A DNA stretch of 32,809 bases from Omnitrophica WOR_2 bacterium RIFCSPHIGHO2_02_FULL_48_11 (GTDB lineage Bacteria; Omnitrophota; Gorgyraeia; Zapsychrales; GWA2-47-8). The stretch lies in assembly GCA_001805615.1 (NCBI GenBank), contig MHGP01000032.1, forward strand, positions 1 through 32,809, in the 5' to 3' direction. A program made the position numbers and the translations under genes. Positions within the stretch are counted from its first letter, which is position 1. Every line of letters starts with the position of its first letter. Under the pieces are notes generated by a model, which had not been told where the DNA came from, searched no databases, and worked only from the letters and a program-made list of their open reading frames with translations. Positions 17,683 to 23,565 of this stretch are shown here, one piece after another.

Positions 17683-18081
17683 TTATATTCTTCTTCCGCC
17701 TCCGTTTTCCATTTTTTCCTGACATTTCAGGCAGTATTCTGTGTAGGGGATGGCTTTCAGGCGTGCCGCCGGGATAGATTTTTTGCATCCCGTGCAATGG
17801 CCGTAATGTTTGTCGTGAATGCGCTTTAAGGCTGCCTCGAGACGGCTGAGCAATTCACGATCATTGGAAGCAAGTCCGAGATTAAATTCGCGGTCATACA
17901 TATCGGTGGCCACGTCCGCCATATGCAGGGCATGACTGGAGACATCCACCGAAGAATCCTTCGCCGAACCGGATTCGGCGGAAGTCATATTTTTAATATC
18001 ATGAAGGATATTCTCCTTCATTTTAAGGATCAATTTGCGGTAACCTTCGAGCTGTTTCTTATCCATTTTCTTATCTGGCAT
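17683..18081 (-). CDS. DksA/TraR-family C4 zinc-finger regulator
   Basis: A 132-residue protein with an N-terminal coiled-coil region (about 5-90) and a C-terminal zinc finger: CTGC, 17 residues, CLKC, the exact spacing of DksA. DksA-family proteins enter the RNA polymerase secondary channel and alter initiation with or without ppGpp. The acidic tip of the coiled coil is present in general form (DSSVDVSS to MADVATDMYDREF), but I cannot align the functional DxxDxA motif with certainty. AAGGAGA lies about nine bases before the ATG. Between ileS and lspA it could report on translation or stress status. DksA itself and a short TraR-like paralogue are both possible. Confidence 0.9.
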   Translation of the reverse strand: MPDKKMDKKQLEGYRKLILKMKENILHDIKNMTSAESGSAKDSSVDVSSHALHMADVATDMYDREFNLGLASNDRELLSRLEAALKRIHDKHYGHCTGCKKSIPAARLKAIPYTEYCLKCQEKMENGGGRRI

Positions 18082-18110: not shown

Positions 18111-18187
18111 AAGGTCACACGTCACACGGTCACATGTAAAAACTAAAAACTTGGAAACAACTTGTGACTTTGTGACATTGTGACTTT
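18111..18187. repeat. GTCAC/GTGAC palindromic element, copy A
   Basis: Left arm: GTCAC at 18114, 18121 and 18129. Right arm: GTGAC at 18164, 18172 and 18180. Units are 7-8 bp apart. The two 27-base arms pair almost fully with one bulge around an AT-rich loop of about 23 bases. It sits in the ileS to dksA gap, and its right arm abuts the ileS stop codon. Two further copies lie at 21005-21083 and 22756-22834. Confidence 0.85.
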
Positions 18188-20997
18188 TAGACCTTTATAA
18201 ATTCCTTCACCACCGACGCACATCGATCACATAAACTGGGGTGATCCGGATCGAAACCTAGGATGCGGTAATTCCAGCACCGCTGGCATTTCTCGCCTTC
18301 GGCGCGTTCGATCTGAACTTCTGTTTTAGAAAAATTCTCGCTCAACGCATTCTGAACCGCCTTAACCTCAACCACTGCCACTTGCGAAACAATAAATACC
18401 GCAGGCAAATCTTTCTCAAAATCTTTTAAATATTTTAAATCCCGGTCACTGGCGGTCTTAAAAACAATTTTGGCTTCCAAAGAGCTCCCAATCTTCCCTT
18501 CCTGACGTTTATTTTCCAAGGCCTTCGATACAAAGGGACGCAACTCAGACAAAAGCTTGAATTGATCTTCAATTCTAGGATTGATCCATTCTCCCGGGAC
18601 CTTCAACCATTCCAAAACATGCACGCTGGCTGCCGCACGACTCTCGCGATCCTTGGGCATCATGGTAAATATCTCTTCTGCCGTAAAGGTAAGGACCGGA
18701 GCGGTGATTCTCACTAAATTATTTAGGATATGATAAAGAACCGTCTGTGCAGAGCGTCTTTCTTTGGATTTAGTTGGTGAAGTATACAGCCGATCTTTTA
18801 GGATGTCAAGGTAAAAACTGGACATGTCTTCGTTACAGAACGCATAAATCGAACGGTACACCTTATCAAATTCATAAGCGTTGTAAGCGTCCTGCACCGT
18901 CTGTAAAAGTGCGGCCAAACGCTGCAAGGCCCAGCGGTCTATGTCGAGCATTTGACCGTACGCGGCCTGATCCTGGTCAGGATCAAAGTCGTGGAGATTG
19001 CCCAAGAGGTAGCGCGCAGTGTTGCGGATCTTGCGGTAAGAGTCGATCATGCGATCCAGGATCTCTTTGGAGACCCGTACATCATCATTGTAATTGCTGG
19101 CCGCGACCCACAGACGTAAAATATCCGCGCCGCTGGTTTTGATCACATCCTGCGGAGCCACGACGTTGCCCAACGACTTGGACATCTTGCGGCCCTGGCC
19201 ATCGACGACAAATCCATGCGTTAAAACACTTTTAAAAGGCGCCTTCCCTTCCAGCGCCACTGCCGGAATAATCGAAGACTGAAACCAGCCGCGGTGCTGG
19301 TCCGATCCTTCCAGATACATTTCAATGGGAAGGTCTTTTTTCAGCATTGCTTTCACCACGGCCTGATGACTCACCCCGGAATCGAACCAAACATCTAGAA
19401 TGTCATGAGTCTTTTCAAAATTGGCTTGCTTGCAATCGGGACAAACAAATCCTTTGGGAAGAATATCTTTAACATCTTTGGCAAACCACGCGTCGCTTCC
19501 CTCTTTTTTCACGATCTCGGCAAAATGTTCGATCACCGAAACAAAAAGTTTGGGCTCGCCGTTACAACCCTGACAGGCCAGCGCCGGGATCGGCACGCCC
19601 CAATGCCGCTGACGCGACAAACACCAGTCTGGACGCAAACTCACCATCGCGGCGATCCGTTCTTGACCGGCTTCCGGGATCCACTGCACATCGCGCTTGA
19701 TAATTTCCTGCAACTTGTTACGCAAATGATCATGGTCAATATTTAAAAACCACTGTTTGGTGGCACGAAAGATGATCGGCTTCTTGCAGCGCCAGCAATG
19801 CGGATAGGAGTGAGTAATATTTTCACTATAGAAAAGAGTTCCGCGCGCTTGTAAATTCTCAATAATCTTTTCATTAGCTTTGAAAACATGCTGACCGGCA
19901 AATTCGCCAGCCTGATCGGTAAATATTCCACGGTCATTAACCGGCATTCTGATAGGCAAACTGTTTGCTAGACCGGCCTTAAAATCATCCTGCCCATGTC
20001 CCGGTGCGGTGTGGACCAATCCCGTACCGTCTTCTTTGGTAACATAATCAACCGTGATCACTCGATAGCTTCCCATCATGCTAAATGGAGAAGTATAATT
20101 TATATTTTTTAACTCATTCCCCTTAAATCCCGCAATAACTTTATAATCCGTGACCGTGCCTTTGGCTAAAACTTTTTCTACCAGAGAACCCTCTATAATT
20201 AAAATTTCACGCCCGATATCCACCAACCTATAATCATAATCCGGATGCACCGCCACTGCCACATTCGCCAAAAGGGTCCAGGGAGTCGTGGTCCAGATCA
20301 AAAGATAAACATCTTTGCCCGAAGGCAAGCCCTTGATGGCCTGCGGATTATTGACTTTGAATTTCACATACACCGACGGAGACGTGTGATCTTCGTATTC
20401 CACTTCCGCCTCGGCAAGTGCGGTCTCGCAATTCGGGCACCAGTTGACCGGCTTGAGCCCGCGGTAGACATAACCTTTCTTGGTCAACTCGGCAAAAGAT
20501 TTTAGGATCCAATATTCATAATCCGGCGCGAGCGTTAAATACGGATGCTCCCAATCGCCGAACACCCCGAGGCGTTTAAATTCTTCACGCTGGATCCCCA
20601 CGTACTGCATCGCGTAGTCGTGGGCCTTCTTGCGAAAATCCACCGTGTCGACTTCGGTCTTATGTTTTTTCAATTCCTTAAAAAGCTGGTGCTCGATCGG
20701 CAGACCGTGGCAATCCCAGCCGGGAACATAATAACTGTCGAATCCCTGCATGGTTTTCATCTTAACAATGACGTCTTTCAAAATTTTATTGAGGGCATGG
20801 CCGATGTGAATGTTGCCGTTGGCGTACGGCGGGCCGTCGTGCAGCAAGAATTGTTTTTTCCCTTTGGATTTGGCGCGGATGGCGGGATAAAGCCCGGCGG
20901 TTTCCCAATGTTTGAGCAGGGCAGGTTCTTTTTCAGCCAAACCCGCCTTCATCGAAAAATCCGTCTGAGGTAAATTGATGGTTTTTTGATAATCCAT
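18187..20997 (-). CDS. ileS: Isoleucyl-tRNA synthetase
   Basis: IleS charges tRNA-Ile in the cytoplasm. With the ATG at 20997 it is 936 residues, close to the usual bacterial length, starting MDYQKTINLPQTDFSMKAGL, the standard family N-terminus. A GTG at 21009 would add four residues but lies inside palindrome copy B, so I prefer the ATG. Motifs: HIGH at 64-67 in DGPPYANGNIHIGHALNK, the editing domain segment GTGLVHTAPGHGQDDF, KMSKS in GQGRKMSKSLGN, and a C-terminal zinc ribbon (CQRC, then CDRC about 17 residues later) typical of the bacterial type-1 enzyme. There is no AGGAGG; a GGTGA word from the repeat lies about ten bases upstream of the ATG. Confidence 0.97.
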   Translation of the reverse strand: MDYQKTINLPQTDFSMKAGLAEKEPALLKHWETAGLYPAIRAKSKGKKQFLLHDGPPYANGNIHIGHALNKILKDVIVKMKTMQGFDSYYVPGWDCHGLPIEHQLFKELKKHKTEVDTVDFRKKAHDYAMQYVGIQREEFKRLGVFGDWEHPYLTLAPDYEYWILKSFAELTKKGYVYRGLKPVNWCPNCETALAEAEVEYEDHTSPSVYVKFKVNNPQAIKGLPSGKDVYLLIWTTTPWTLLANVAVAVHPDYDYRLVDIGREILIIEGSLVEKVLAKGTVTDYKVIAGFKGNELKNINYTSPFSMMGSYRVITVDYVTKEDGTGLVHTAPGHGQDDFKAGLANSLPIRMPVNDRGIFTDQAGEFAGQHVFKANEKIIENLQARGTLFYSENITHSYPHCWRCKKPIIFRATKQWFLNIDHDHLRNKLQEIIKRDVQWIPEAGQERIAAMVSLRPDWCLSRQRHWGVPIPALACQGCNGEPKLFVSVIEHFAEIVKKEGSDAWFAKDVKDILPKGFVCPDCKQANFEKTHDILDVWFDSGVSHQAVVKAMLKKDLPIEMYLEGSDQHRGWFQSSIIPAVALEGKAPFKSVLTHGFVVDGQGRKMSKSLGNVVAPQDVIKTSGADILRLWVAASNYNDDVRVSKEILDRMIDSYRKIRNTARYLLGNLHDFDPDQDQAAYGQMLDIDRWALQRLAALLQTVQDAYNAYEFDKVYRSIYAFCNEDMSSFYLDILKDRLYTSPTKSKERRSAQTVLYHILNNLVRITAPVLTFTAEEIFTMMPKDRESRAAASVHVLEWLKVPGEWINPRIEDQFKLLSELRPFVSKALENKRQEGKIGSSLEAKIVFKTASDRDLKYLKDFEKDLPAVFIVSQVAVVEVKAVQNALSENFSKTEVQIERAEGEKCQRCWNYRILGFDPDHPSLCDRCASVVKEFIKV

Positions 20998-21004
20998 GAA
21001 CAAC

Positions 21005-21083
21005 GTCACCAGGTCACCCAGTCACCCGGTCACCAGTCGTTTCAAGTTTACACTTGTGACTTGGTGACTGATGACTTAGTGAC
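21005..21083. repeat. GTCAC/GTGAC palindromic element, copy B
   Basis: Left arm: GTCAC at 21005, 21013, 21021 and 21029, an exact 8-bp period. Right arm: GTGAC at 21056 and 21064, a degenerate ATGAC at 21071, then GTGAC at 21079. The loop is about 22 bases. The element fills the gap between the mtnP stop (21084) and the ileS start (20997), leaving almost no other intergenic sequence. Confidence 0.85.
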
Positions 21084-21944
21084 TTATTTAATATATTTCC
21101 CGATCAAAATTTCTAATTCTTTTTTCTTCTGTTCCGGGATCGCTTTAGGATCGGTAATGAGCGCGAACTGCAGTGCCCCTTGCGCGCTAAAACTTTTTAA
21201 CTTGCCGATTTCCGGAATGGCTAATTTCAAAATCTTTTTGGCATTCTCGATGTTCTGATTCAAATTGGCAATGATCATCTCCAGGGTGACGGAATCATGG
21301 CTCGGATGCCAGCAATCGTAATCAGTGACTGCCGCCAGCGTGGCGTATGAAATCTCCGCCTCCCGCGCCAACTTGGCCTCCACAATATTCGTCATGCCGA
21401 TAATATCCATCCCCCAGCTGCGGTACAGATTGGACTCAGCCTTCGTTGAGAACTGCGGGCCTTCCATATTGATGTACGTTCCGCCGTTATGCACCGTGAC
21501 CCCGGCTTTCTTTGCCGCTTCCACCAGGATCTTTTGCAGTTCCGGAGAGACCGGATCGGCAAACGCCACATGCGCGACAAGCCCGCCGCCAAAAAATGTT
21601 GATTCGCGGGCATGATTGGTGCGGTCGACAAATTGATCCGGCACCACAAAATCCATCGGTTTCAATTCTTCTTTCAAACTCCCGCAGGCGGAAACCGAGA
21701 GGATCGCATCCACGCCTAATTTTTTCATGCCAAAAATATTCGCGCGGTAATTGATCTCCGTCGGTGAAATCTTGTGCCCTTTGCCATGCCGCGGCAGAAA
21801 AACAACATCAATCCCCGAAATTTTTCCTTGGATATAATTCCCCGAAGGGACACCAAAAGGGGTCAGGATCGAAATCTCTTCCACCTTCTCAATTCCTTCA
21901 ATCTGATACAAGCCGCTACCGCCGATAATCCCGACTTTAGGCAT
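21084..21944 (-). CDS. mtnP: S-methyl-5'-thioadenosine phosphorylase
   Basis: MtnP splits methylthioadenosine with phosphate into adenine and 5-methylthioribose-1-phosphate for methionine salvage. The 286-residue protein begins with MPKVGIIGGSGLYQIEGIEK and has PRHGKGHKISPTEINYRANI (phosphate and substrate binding), VSACGSLKEEL, MEGPQFSTKAES, GMTNIVEAKLAREAEI and TDYDCW, all diagnostic of the MTAP branch of trimeric nucleoside phosphorylases. AAGGAG precedes the ATG. It starts 14 bases after proC. The closely related purine nucleoside phosphorylase is the main alternative; GGSGLY, the MEGPQFST run and TDYDCW favour MTAP. Confidence 0.95.
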   Translation of the reverse strand: MPKVGIIGGSGLYQIEGIEKVEEISILTPFGVPSGNYIQGKISGIDVVFLPRHGKGHKISPTEINYRANIFGMKKLGVDAILSVSACGSLKEELKPMDFVVPDQFVDRTNHARESTFFGGGLVAHVAFADPVSPELQKILVEAAKKAGVTVHNGGTYINMEGPQFSTKAESNLYRSWGMDIIGMTNIVEAKLAREAEISYATLAAVTDYDCWHPSHDSVTLEMIIANLNQNIENAKKILKLAIPEIGKLKSFSAQGALQFALITDPKAIPEQKKKELEILIGKYIK

Positions 21945-21958
21945 GACAGGATCTCCTT

Positions 21959-22744
21959 TTATTTCTTGGAAAGTTTTCCGGCTCTTTTCTTTGCAGCCAT
22001 GGCCGCTTCTTTGATGATATTCTGAAATTTTTTAGCAAAAAAAACTTTCATGGCTGCTTCGGTTGTTCCGCCTTTAGAAGTCACTTTCGCACGAAGTGTT
22101 TGTGCATCATCCTTAGATCCTAGCAAGTGAAAAACACTGCCCAGGAGCGTGCCGTAAGACAATATTTTGGCGGTCGCTTTATCCAGACCCAAGGACTCGG
22201 CAGCCTTTTGTAGGCTTTCTTCAAAAAGAAAAACATAGGCCGGGCCGCTGCCGGAGATGGCCGTAACCGCATCCATATTTTTTTCTTGAACGATAACGGT
22301 TGTTCCGATCTTATTAAAAATATCACGCGCCAGCCGAACATCCGCCGGTGCCGCATACTTTCCCTTACAGATAGCGGTCACACCTTGTCCGATCTGCGCG
22401 TTAAGATTGGGCATAGTCCGGATGACCTTAGTCCCATTTCCCAGCCTCTTCTCTATATAAGACGTCGTAATGCCGGCCGCGATCGAGATGACCAGCTTCT
22501 TTCGGACCAAGGCACTCATGCACTCCAGGACGCCCTCGATATCCTGCGGTTTAACCGCGACGATCACGATATCGCTTTTTTTAAGCGCGCTCCCAAAGTC
22601 GGCAGGAGTAATCTTGTATGTACGGCGCAGATAATTGGCCCGCTGCGGATTTTGTTCGCAGACAAGAACCTTAAAATTCTTGCGAACGCGCTCCAGGATC
22701 GCGGTCCCCATGTTTCCGCCGCCTATGATAGAGATAGTAGTCAT
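21959..22744 (-). CDS. proC: Pyrroline-5-carboxylate reductase
   Basis: ProC reduces pyrroline-5-carboxylate to proline with NAD(P)H, the last step of proline synthesis. The N-terminal Rossmann motif is SIIGGGNMGTAIL; the conserved AVKPQDIEGVL follows (about 66-76), then SIAAGITTSYIEKRL, RTMPNLNAQIGQG, the signature AISGSGPAYVFLFEESLQKA, and KVTSKGGTTEAAMKVF near the C-terminus. Length of 261 residues is typical. No Shine-Dalgarno is visible: palindrome copy C ends a few bases before the AT-rich sequence preceding the ATG. Follows yggS, a common and conserved yggS-proC linkage. Confidence 0.96.
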   Translation of the reverse strand: MTTISIIGGGNMGTAILERVRKNFKVLVCEQNPQRANYLRRTYKITPADFGSALKKSDIVIVAVKPQDIEGVLECMSALVRKKLVISIAAGITTSYIEKRLGNGTKVIRTMPNLNAQIGQGVTAICKGKYAAPADVRLARDIFNKIGTTVIVQEKNMDAVTAISGSGPAYVFLFEESLQKAAESLGLDKATAKILSYGTLLGSVFHLLGSKDDAQTLRAKVTSKGGTTEAAMKVFFAKKFQNIIKEAAMAAKKRAGKLSKK

Positions 22745-22755
22745 ATTTTTTTAAA

Positions 22756-22834
22756 GTCACAATGTCACACGTCACAACGTCACCCGAAAAAATTTAAAAC
22801 CACTGGTGACCTAGTGACCCTGTGACTTGGTGAC
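22756..22834. repeat. GTCAC/GTGAC palindromic element, copy C
   Basis: Left arm: GTCAC at 22756, 22764, 22771 and 22779. Right arm: GTGAC at 22806, 22814, 22822 and 22830, an exact 8-bp period. The loop is about 22 bases and AT-rich. It fills the gap between yggS and proC and is flanked on the plus strand by a T6 run just beyond the right arm. Confidence 0.85.
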
Positions 22835-22840
22835 ATTTTT

Positions 22841-23530
22841 TCATGCAAATATCGCCCGTCCGATGCGTATCATATTCGACCCTTCTTCGAGGGCGATCTC
22901 AAAATCTTCGGTCATCCCCATAGACAAATATTGCATCTTTACATTCGGTAAGCCTTGAAATTTTTTGGCTGCTGCGTCGCGGATCTCGCGCAATTGTTTA
23001 AAACAGGCCCGGACGATATTTTTATCGTCGACAAACGGTGCCATGGTCATCAGACCTAAGATCCTGATCCGCTTTAATTTTGCGATCTCTGCCACCAGCG
23101 CCAAGGCCTCGGCTGGGTCTGTTCCAAATTTTTGTTCTTCTCCCGAAGTCTTCACCTGCACCAAAATATCCGCGGCACGGCCCAATTTTTCCGCCTGTTT
23201 GTCGATCTCCTGCGCGAGCTTCAGACTGTCCACCGATTGGATCAAATCGCACACCTTTAAAGTATCTTTAACCTTATTCGTCTGCAGGTGTCCGATCAAA
23301 TGGCAGGTGATCTGAGGATATTTCTTCTTCAATTCCGGAAACTTCTTTTGAGCTTCCTGAACCTTGTTCTCGGCAATATGAGTGATCCCCGCCTGAATAG
23401 CGGCTTTTATCTTTTCGGTCGGCGCGAACTTGGTCACACCGATGAGGATGATTTCGCTGGGATTCCGTCCTAACCGCTTGCAAACAGAGGAGATTTTGCC
23501 CTGAATTTCGGAAATTCTTGCAGAAATCAT
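22841..23530 (-). CDS. yggS: YggS/PROSC-family PLP-binding homeostasis protein
   Basis: A PLP-binding protein that helps maintain vitamin B6 and amino-acid homeostasis; it has no known catalytic reaction. The TIM-barrel-like domain holds the PLP lysine in IGVTKFAP, AENKVQEAQKKFPEL, CHLIGHLQTNK, SVDSLKLAQEI, VQVKTSGEEQKFG, LGLMTMAP and the closing SMGMTEDFEIALEEGSNMIRIGRAIF. I choose the ATG at 23530 (229 residues). A TTG at 23548 would add six residues (ending in CYFSP) but lies within a predicted promoter -10 region. There is no Shine-Dalgarno, which fits a leaderless start. Downstream is proC, the typical neighbour. Confidence 0.95.
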   Translation of the reverse strand: MISARISEIQGKISSVCKRLGRNPSEIILIGVTKFAPTEKIKAAIQAGITHIAENKVQEAQKKFPELKKKYPQITCHLIGHLQTNKVKDTLKVCDLIQSVDSLKLAQEIDKQAEKLGRAADILVQVKTSGEEQKFGTDPAEALALVAEIAKLKRIRILGLMTMAPFVDDKNIVRACFKQLREIRDAAAKKFQGLPNVKMQYLSMGMTEDFEIALEEGSNMIRIGRAIFA

Positions 23531-23536
23531 TGGGCT

Positions 23537-23565
23537 AAAATAGCACAAAAGGGTTGGATAGTCAA
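23537..23565 (-). promoter_or_regulatory. Candidate promoter for yggS, possibly giving a leaderless mRNA
   Basis: The minus strand has TTGACT (23560-23565), exactly 17 bp, then TATTTT (23537-23542) with an extended -10 TG. The -35 starts directly after the addB-like TGA stop. The expected start point, about seven bases beyond the -10, coincides with the yggS ATG at 23530, which has no ribosome-binding site. Confidence 0.5.

Follow-up and report, generated by a model that had tools for sequence, protein, structure and literature searches.

The stretch of DNA analysed here, referred to as the window, comprises 32,809 nucleotides of contig MHGP01000032.1 from Omnitrophica WOR_2 bacterium RIFCSPHIGHO2_02_FULL_48_11, a metagenome-assembled genome (MAG) of 2.01 Mb in 95 contigs; the nearest relatives of its ileS gene all belong to the Omnitrophota. 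Three gaps between its protein-coding genes contain the inverted, phased arrays already recorded in a preliminary description of the stretch, in which units of the pentamer GTCAC, spaced at 7-8 bp, are followed by a loop and by GTGAC units at the same spacing (Table 1). The arrays contain no open reading frame (ORF) and lie outside any rRNA gene, and no Rfam match was obtained within the window, so that a known RNA family is not supported. The flanking housekeeping genes are co-oriented, all on the minus strand, and the near-abutment of the arrays to codons is also borne out: a distance of 2 bp separates element 1 from the ileS stop codon, and element 2 touches the mtnP stop codon and is 7 bp from the ileS ATG. 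However, the loop of 22-27 bases given in that description is not a fixed property, as loops measure 30, 22 and 22 nt in the window and 5-33 nt across the genome.

Table 1. Phased inverted arrays of the window and the genes that flank them.
Feature	Coordinates	Strand	Gap	Description
Element 1	18114..18184		ileS / dksA-traR-like	GTCAC x3, 30-nt loop 18134-18163, GTGAC x3, all exact
Element 2	21005..21083		mtnP-like / ileS	GTCAC x4, 22-nt loop 21034-21055, GTGAC x3 plus degenerate ATGAC at 21071
Element 3	22756..22834		yggS / proC	GTCAC x4, 22-nt loop 22784-22805, GTGAC x4
DksA/TraR C4 zinc-finger gene	17683..18081	-		PF01258; flanks element 1
ileS, isoleucyl-tRNA synthetase	18187..20997	-		Lies between elements 1 and 2
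PNP_UDP_1 family gene, mtnP-like phosphorylase	21084..21944	-		PF01048; flanks element 2
proC, pyrroline-5-carboxylate reductase	21959..22744	-		PF14748; flanks element 3
yggS-like gene, pyridoxal phosphate (PLP)-binding protein	22841..23548	-		PF01168; flanks element 3

The three elements belong to a large and dispersed family. The pattern GTCACN2-4GTCACN2-4GTCAC has 113 matches in the 2.01-Mb genome, while the same pattern read backwards has none, which disposes of the possibility that no further copies exist. A catalogue compiled from 678 kb including the window holds 63 elements (60 of them in the 645 kb outside it), mostly 60-84 bp in length and with varying unit numbers. Their loops share the consensus ACGTAAAAACTT..AACRACTT, found in either orientation with only a weak bias (25 versus 11, p=0.03); the loops of other genomes are less similar to this consensus, and those of the relative G138 resemble one another. 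In this genome and that of a second relative, G328, 73 of the 83 placeable elements (a set that omits elements inside ORFs and at contig edges) are located between co-oriented genes, with median distances of 0-5 bp from the stop codon and 6-8 bp from the start codon. The absence of an ORF, the inverted ends and the many dispersed copies are hallmarks of miniature inverted-repeat transposable elements (MITEs).

All three window elements fold better than shuffled sequences on both strands (z -4.3 to -6.1), but the arms do not pair continuously over 27-35 bp, as had been supposed. In fact, the pentamers pair and the spacers do not: the facing third spacer bases match in 6 of 102 cases in the window genome and in 7 of 55 in G328, against an expected 27-30%, and two 2-nt spacers almost never stand opposite each other. 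Because facing spacers pair less often than chance would allow, the stem is best described as a ladder in which 5-bp helices alternate with mismatched spacers. Every kind of letter mismatch occurs at the third spacer base, so that descent from a single mismatched ancestor provides no explanation. A universal rule of spacer mismatch was nevertheless rejected; the effect holds for GTCAC in the window genome and G328 and not for the pooled heptamer words, and it is not significant in the small sets from a further relative, G224, and from other genomes. The earlier statement that phase and pairing are the conserved features therefore stands, as regards pairing, for the pentamers only, and the word itself is not fixed across species or gaps.

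Also significant is the observation that the arms avoid spacer complementarity only when aligned exactly as in the hairpin (z -4.7 at offset 0), which implies a folded strand and so does not favour the protein-binding array that had been offered as one option. The operators of MetJ and of the omega repressor consist of a fixed word phased at 7-8 bp, and the arrays could by analogy be double-stranded DNA sites for an oligomerising protein, for example a ribbon-helix-helix binder of heptads or octads; yet such a site has no need of register-specific spacer avoidance, and the use of many words in one genome also argues against it, making this explanation very unlikely. A similarly improbable origin, to which we give slightly less credence, is that of a by-product of replication slippage and template switching, neither mobile nor functional. 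While the variable unit number and the short words are in keeping with slippage, the correction of quasipalindromes should yield matching spacers, the opposite of what is found, and a genome-wide common word, common loops and the bracketing by arrays of genes for IVP, the 23S rRNA-intervening-sequence protein (PF05635), would all be left unexplained.

The architecture is not restricted to GTCAC. A word-independent scan, which detected no arrays in Markov-shuffled controls, recovered the identical design with TCAG, TAAG, GTAA, GTAT, TCGT, AGAC, AATG, CCAG, ATGT and other words; GTAAG and ACAT also serve as array words, and several words coexist within one genome. In the window genome and two relatives, the arrays of other words mostly have a period of 7 bp, as against 8 bp for GTCAC. 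The strict criterion yielded no array in 1.33 Mb of sequence surrounding ileS in many phyla. Within the phylum the distribution is patchy: among 384 Omnitrophota genomes, 106 have a GTCAC triple and 47 a strict TCAG ladder, and the numbers of GTCAC matches in four species of a single genus are 7, 27, 128 and 0. A member of the genus of G328, G351, has no GTCAC match, TCAG ladder or IVP match, unlike its three sister species.

Comparison of orthologous gaps illustrates that occupancy is kept while the word is switched. G328 and G224 belong to one genus and share 24 comparable gaps, the flanks of which are 69-87% identical. All eight element-bearing gaps of G328 hold a phased inverted array in G224 as well, with the same word in four and a switched word in four (ACAT, TCAG twice and AAGAANC; one of these four arrays was recognised by eye). 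In the other 16 gaps the strict scan found no arrays (p about 1e-6 to 2e-5), and by eye a few of them show less strict ladders, in some cases confined to one of the two species. A symmetric comparison of the two genomes is biased because the G328 stretches were chosen for holding GTCAC elements. The gaps of the window behave in the same manner: the yggS-proC gap, occupied by GTCAC in the window, holds a TCAG ladder in G328 and an IVP gene between GTGAC/GTCAC arrays in G337, and the mtnP-ileS gap holds a GTAAG heptamer ladder in G328. The ileS and dksA-like genes of G328 overlap, leaving neither gap nor element, and the ileS gaps of more distant relatives contain no GTCAC arrays. Identical presence in all relatives can thus be dismissed, since words vary between relatives and one of the gaps has no element in one of them. 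In G224, the gaps orthologous to L224 4551-4640 and L240 9079-9129 were seen to contain a longer dispersed repeat, ccagaggctgatccgccaatgaaggttagaaaagg..., with two inverted arms phased at about 7 nt.

These comparisons bear on the proposal that the ladders function as RNA hairpins within polycistronic transcripts, acting in processing, stability or translational insulation, for which structure alone would matter and the words would accordingly be replaceable. The unbroken occupancy of the eight G328/G224 gaps despite word switches agrees with such a function, as do the precise stop-to-start placement, the strong folding and the retention in register of spacer mismatches, which would resist RNase III. 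However, the mismatches show no bias towards the transcribed or sense strand (27 G.U versus 27 A.C at the third spacer position), certain gaps occupied in the window genome are empty in relatives (ileS-dksA in G328, and the more distant ileS neighbours), the number of matches ranges from 0 to 128 within one genus, and the IVP genes found inside hairpins would need a separate explanation. On balance, a functional hairpin is considered unlikely, although less so than a protein-binding site or slippage.

As a partner for the elements, a TnpA-REP-like transposase had been suspected, that is, a repetitive extragenic palindromic (REP)-associated tyrosine transposase (RAYT). In the window genome, a RAYT-like gene with a Y1_Tnp match (C24:9025-9612, minus strand) does abut a GTCAC element, with which its predicted start overlaps, and was pursued for this reason; one of the three RAYT genes of this genome adjoins an array. 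In other array-rich genomes, however, only 1 of 30 RAYT loci has an array within 1.5 kb, on which basis a RAYT/REP origin was rejected, and three array-rich genomes (G328, G337 and G146) lack a Y1_Tnp match. A phased pentamer array also differs from the REP layout, and mobilisation by RAYT of elements of the type of REPs or bacterial interspersed mosaic elements (BIMEs) is the least credible of the explanations considered.

The partner found is instead the IVP gene. In the window genome, an IVP gene (C24:10174-10569) has a GTCAC half-array on either side, and inspection of nine IVP loci in two genomes showed eight to be flanked by arrays, each with its own word. When the two 200-bp flanks of 37 IVP loci from 12 Omnitrophota genomes were compared as inverted copies, the median local score was 21, compared with 11 for 239 ORFs of similar length (p=3e-15), 11 for mis-paired IVP flanks and 12 for 27 RAYT genes. 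A score of at least 16 was reached by 30 of the 37 IVP loci, each with its own word, and by 10 of 240 control ORFs, a set that itself still includes some IVP genes, and the IVP flanks are periodic at 7 nt (0.58 versus 0.40) and at 8 nt. GTCAC brackets IVP genes in the window genome, G171 and G198; the IVP word of G110, CAGTG, is the reverse complement of CACTG, the word behind the control-pattern matches of G110. For GTCAC, TAAGT and CAAAT, the IVP word is also the word of bare ladders in the same genome, whereas several words have no such match, and a general correspondence was therefore rejected.

Of 384 Omnitrophota genomes, 232 have a member of the IVP family, as against none of 14 control genomes. 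The family is found in 28 of 32 genomes with at least 10 GTCAC matches versus 204 of 352 others (p=0.001), and in 39 of 47 genomes with TCAG ladders versus 193 of 337 others (p=0.0007), the ladder-positive genomes having been tallied by hand. Five of the eight IVP genes of the window genome lie on the 19.8-kb contig C24 (L040), which also holds a RAYT gene and several GTCAC elements. At some loci (L265 and L272 of G224; L040 10177-10569) the start region of the IVP gene overlaps the array, and part of the N-terminus is then array-encoded, as in MSQSHNDTRSQ.

Taken together, these data make it fairly likely that the elements of the window represent an IVP element class in a MITE-like form without an ORF. 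Each end of such an element consists of a short word (here GTCAC, with a period of 8) repeated in phase, the two ends being in inverted orientation, so that one strand folds into the ladder of short helices; the full-length form carries an IVP gene between the same arrays, and the bare form would be its MITE-like derivative. Accumulation in intercistronic gaps may reflect the tolerance there of a self-contained hairpin between stop and start codons, and an occupied gap tends to remain occupied while its content gives way to elements of another word or to the form that carries IVP. The anatomy, the dispersal, the occupancy of orthologous gaps with word switches and the IVP bracket in several phyla are observed directly; we infer that the elements are mobile, that bare copies arose from IVP-bearing ones and that the arrays are acted on by IVP. 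The IVP genes with GTCAC ends in the window genome, G171 and G198 are possible autonomous partners. Among the three options of the preliminary description, a non-autonomous mobile element is thus the best supported, by the dispersal, the common loop, the range of 0-128 pattern matches among species of one genus and the ORF-bearing form; the element class is wider than first described, and its best-supported partner is IVP rather than RAYT.

Several observations weigh against this interpretation. Neither a target-site duplication nor a transposition event was observed, in a set of genomes that included no two close strains differing by a clean empty site. A clean internal deletion leading from the IVP form to the bare form was likewise not demonstrated, the subterminal sequences of the two forms in G171 bearing a suggestive likeness only. 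Only one of the eight IVP genes of the window genome has GTCAC arms, and G138 and G271 (MAGs that are 93% and 84% complete) are rich in GTCAC arrays and have no IVP match. In addition, no catalytic motif is known in IVP, the closest relatives of solved structure are uncharacterised proteins, and the conserved occupancy of gaps could also reflect function.

An IVP ORF between complementary ends is familiar from the intervening sequence (IVS) of Coxiella 23S rRNA, where an S23 (IVP) ORF lies within a near-perfect stem of 28 bp; this IVS is regarded as selfish, its mobility is unknown and its protein has no known role (PMC4990558). IVP-carrying elements of the window genome and of other members of its order have this arrangement (30 of 37), but the ends of the Omnitrophota elements are phased arrays of 7-8 nt in gaps between protein genes, and most copies are ORF-less. 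In the Nostoc tRNA-Leu (trnL) intron, the P6b stem is composed of one of two classes of degenerate heptamers (Class I/II), and the region has repeatedly been exchanged in its entirety, one class taking the place of the other with a similar secondary structure (PMC4476775). Stem arms of degenerate repeats with a conserved core and wholesale word replacement at one site are thus common to both systems. In trnL, however, two words alternate at one intron site, whereas the Omnitrophota employ many words in about a hundred intercistronic gaps per genome and show a link to IVP; the window array also differs in being an octamer, its sister words being of 7 nt.

The short tandemly repeated repetitive (STRR) heptamers of cyanobacteria form dispersed intergenic 7-nt arrays. 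Direct repeats of TAACTGA occur in Beggiatoaceae, Cyanobacteria and Bacteroidetes, hence in several phyla, with no gene partner (PMC4679880), and TCAGTTA, the complement of TAACTGA, is present among Omnitrophota TCAG ladders. Both families resemble the present elements as dispersed intergenic 7-nt arrays by start codons, but the descriptions are of direct repeats that have neither an inverted arm as a partner nor an associated gene. REPs, REP doublets forming hairpins (REPINs) and BIMEs are likewise dispersed extragenic hairpins without an ORF, although each is a single imperfect palindrome rather than a phased-word ladder, and a RAYT association is inconsistent in the Omnitrophota. The likeness to Avd (bAvd), the accessory protein of diversity-generating retroelements, consists of a weak bAvd match of the GTCAC-element IVP, below the family cut-off. 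In the part of the open literature that was covered, no work joining IVP to phased arrays was found, which is weak evidence of novelty.

The IVP bracket extends beyond the Omnitrophota. Plasmid IVP homologs are mostly cyanobacterial, and no match was obtained in phages. Of 19 inspected plasmid IVP genes (cyanobacterial and other), 16 have an inverted flank similarity of at least 16 (median 25 versus 11 for mis-paired flanks, p=5e-7). Their heptamers include GGGAACA, AGTCAGG and GGGTGTA, and the genes lie mostly between co-oriented genes, including cas6/cas4 and cas10/cmr3. Array-bracketed IVP genes are therefore present in several phyla, and the heptamer repeats of cyanobacteria, like the P6b repeats of the trnL intron, are probably further members of the class. 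A broader proposal would have IVP as the copying or homing factor of cross-phylum elements ended by interchangeable word arrays, with STRR/heptamer repeats, TAACTGA, trnL P6b, the 23S IVSs and the Omnitrophota ladders as full-length or relic forms; this is conceivable but doubtful. Phased short repeats and the orphan IVP/S23 protein have so far been treated as unrelated curiosities. If IVP is normally array-bracketed and gene-less arrays are derived, this design, found across many bacteria, may be a common source for several short-repeat families that have so far lacked one, and the role of IVS/S23, a long-open question, would become testable in culturable cyanobacteria. The replacement of words at a fixed gap is in itself an unusual mode of sequence turnover.

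In cyanobacterial plasmids, IVP genes were also observed within operons of clustered regularly interspaced short palindromic repeat (CRISPR) systems, in the orders cas6-IVP-cas4 and cas10-IVP-cmr3, with heptamer arrays adjoining the gene (L356 586-954, L352 607-966 and L362 589-945).

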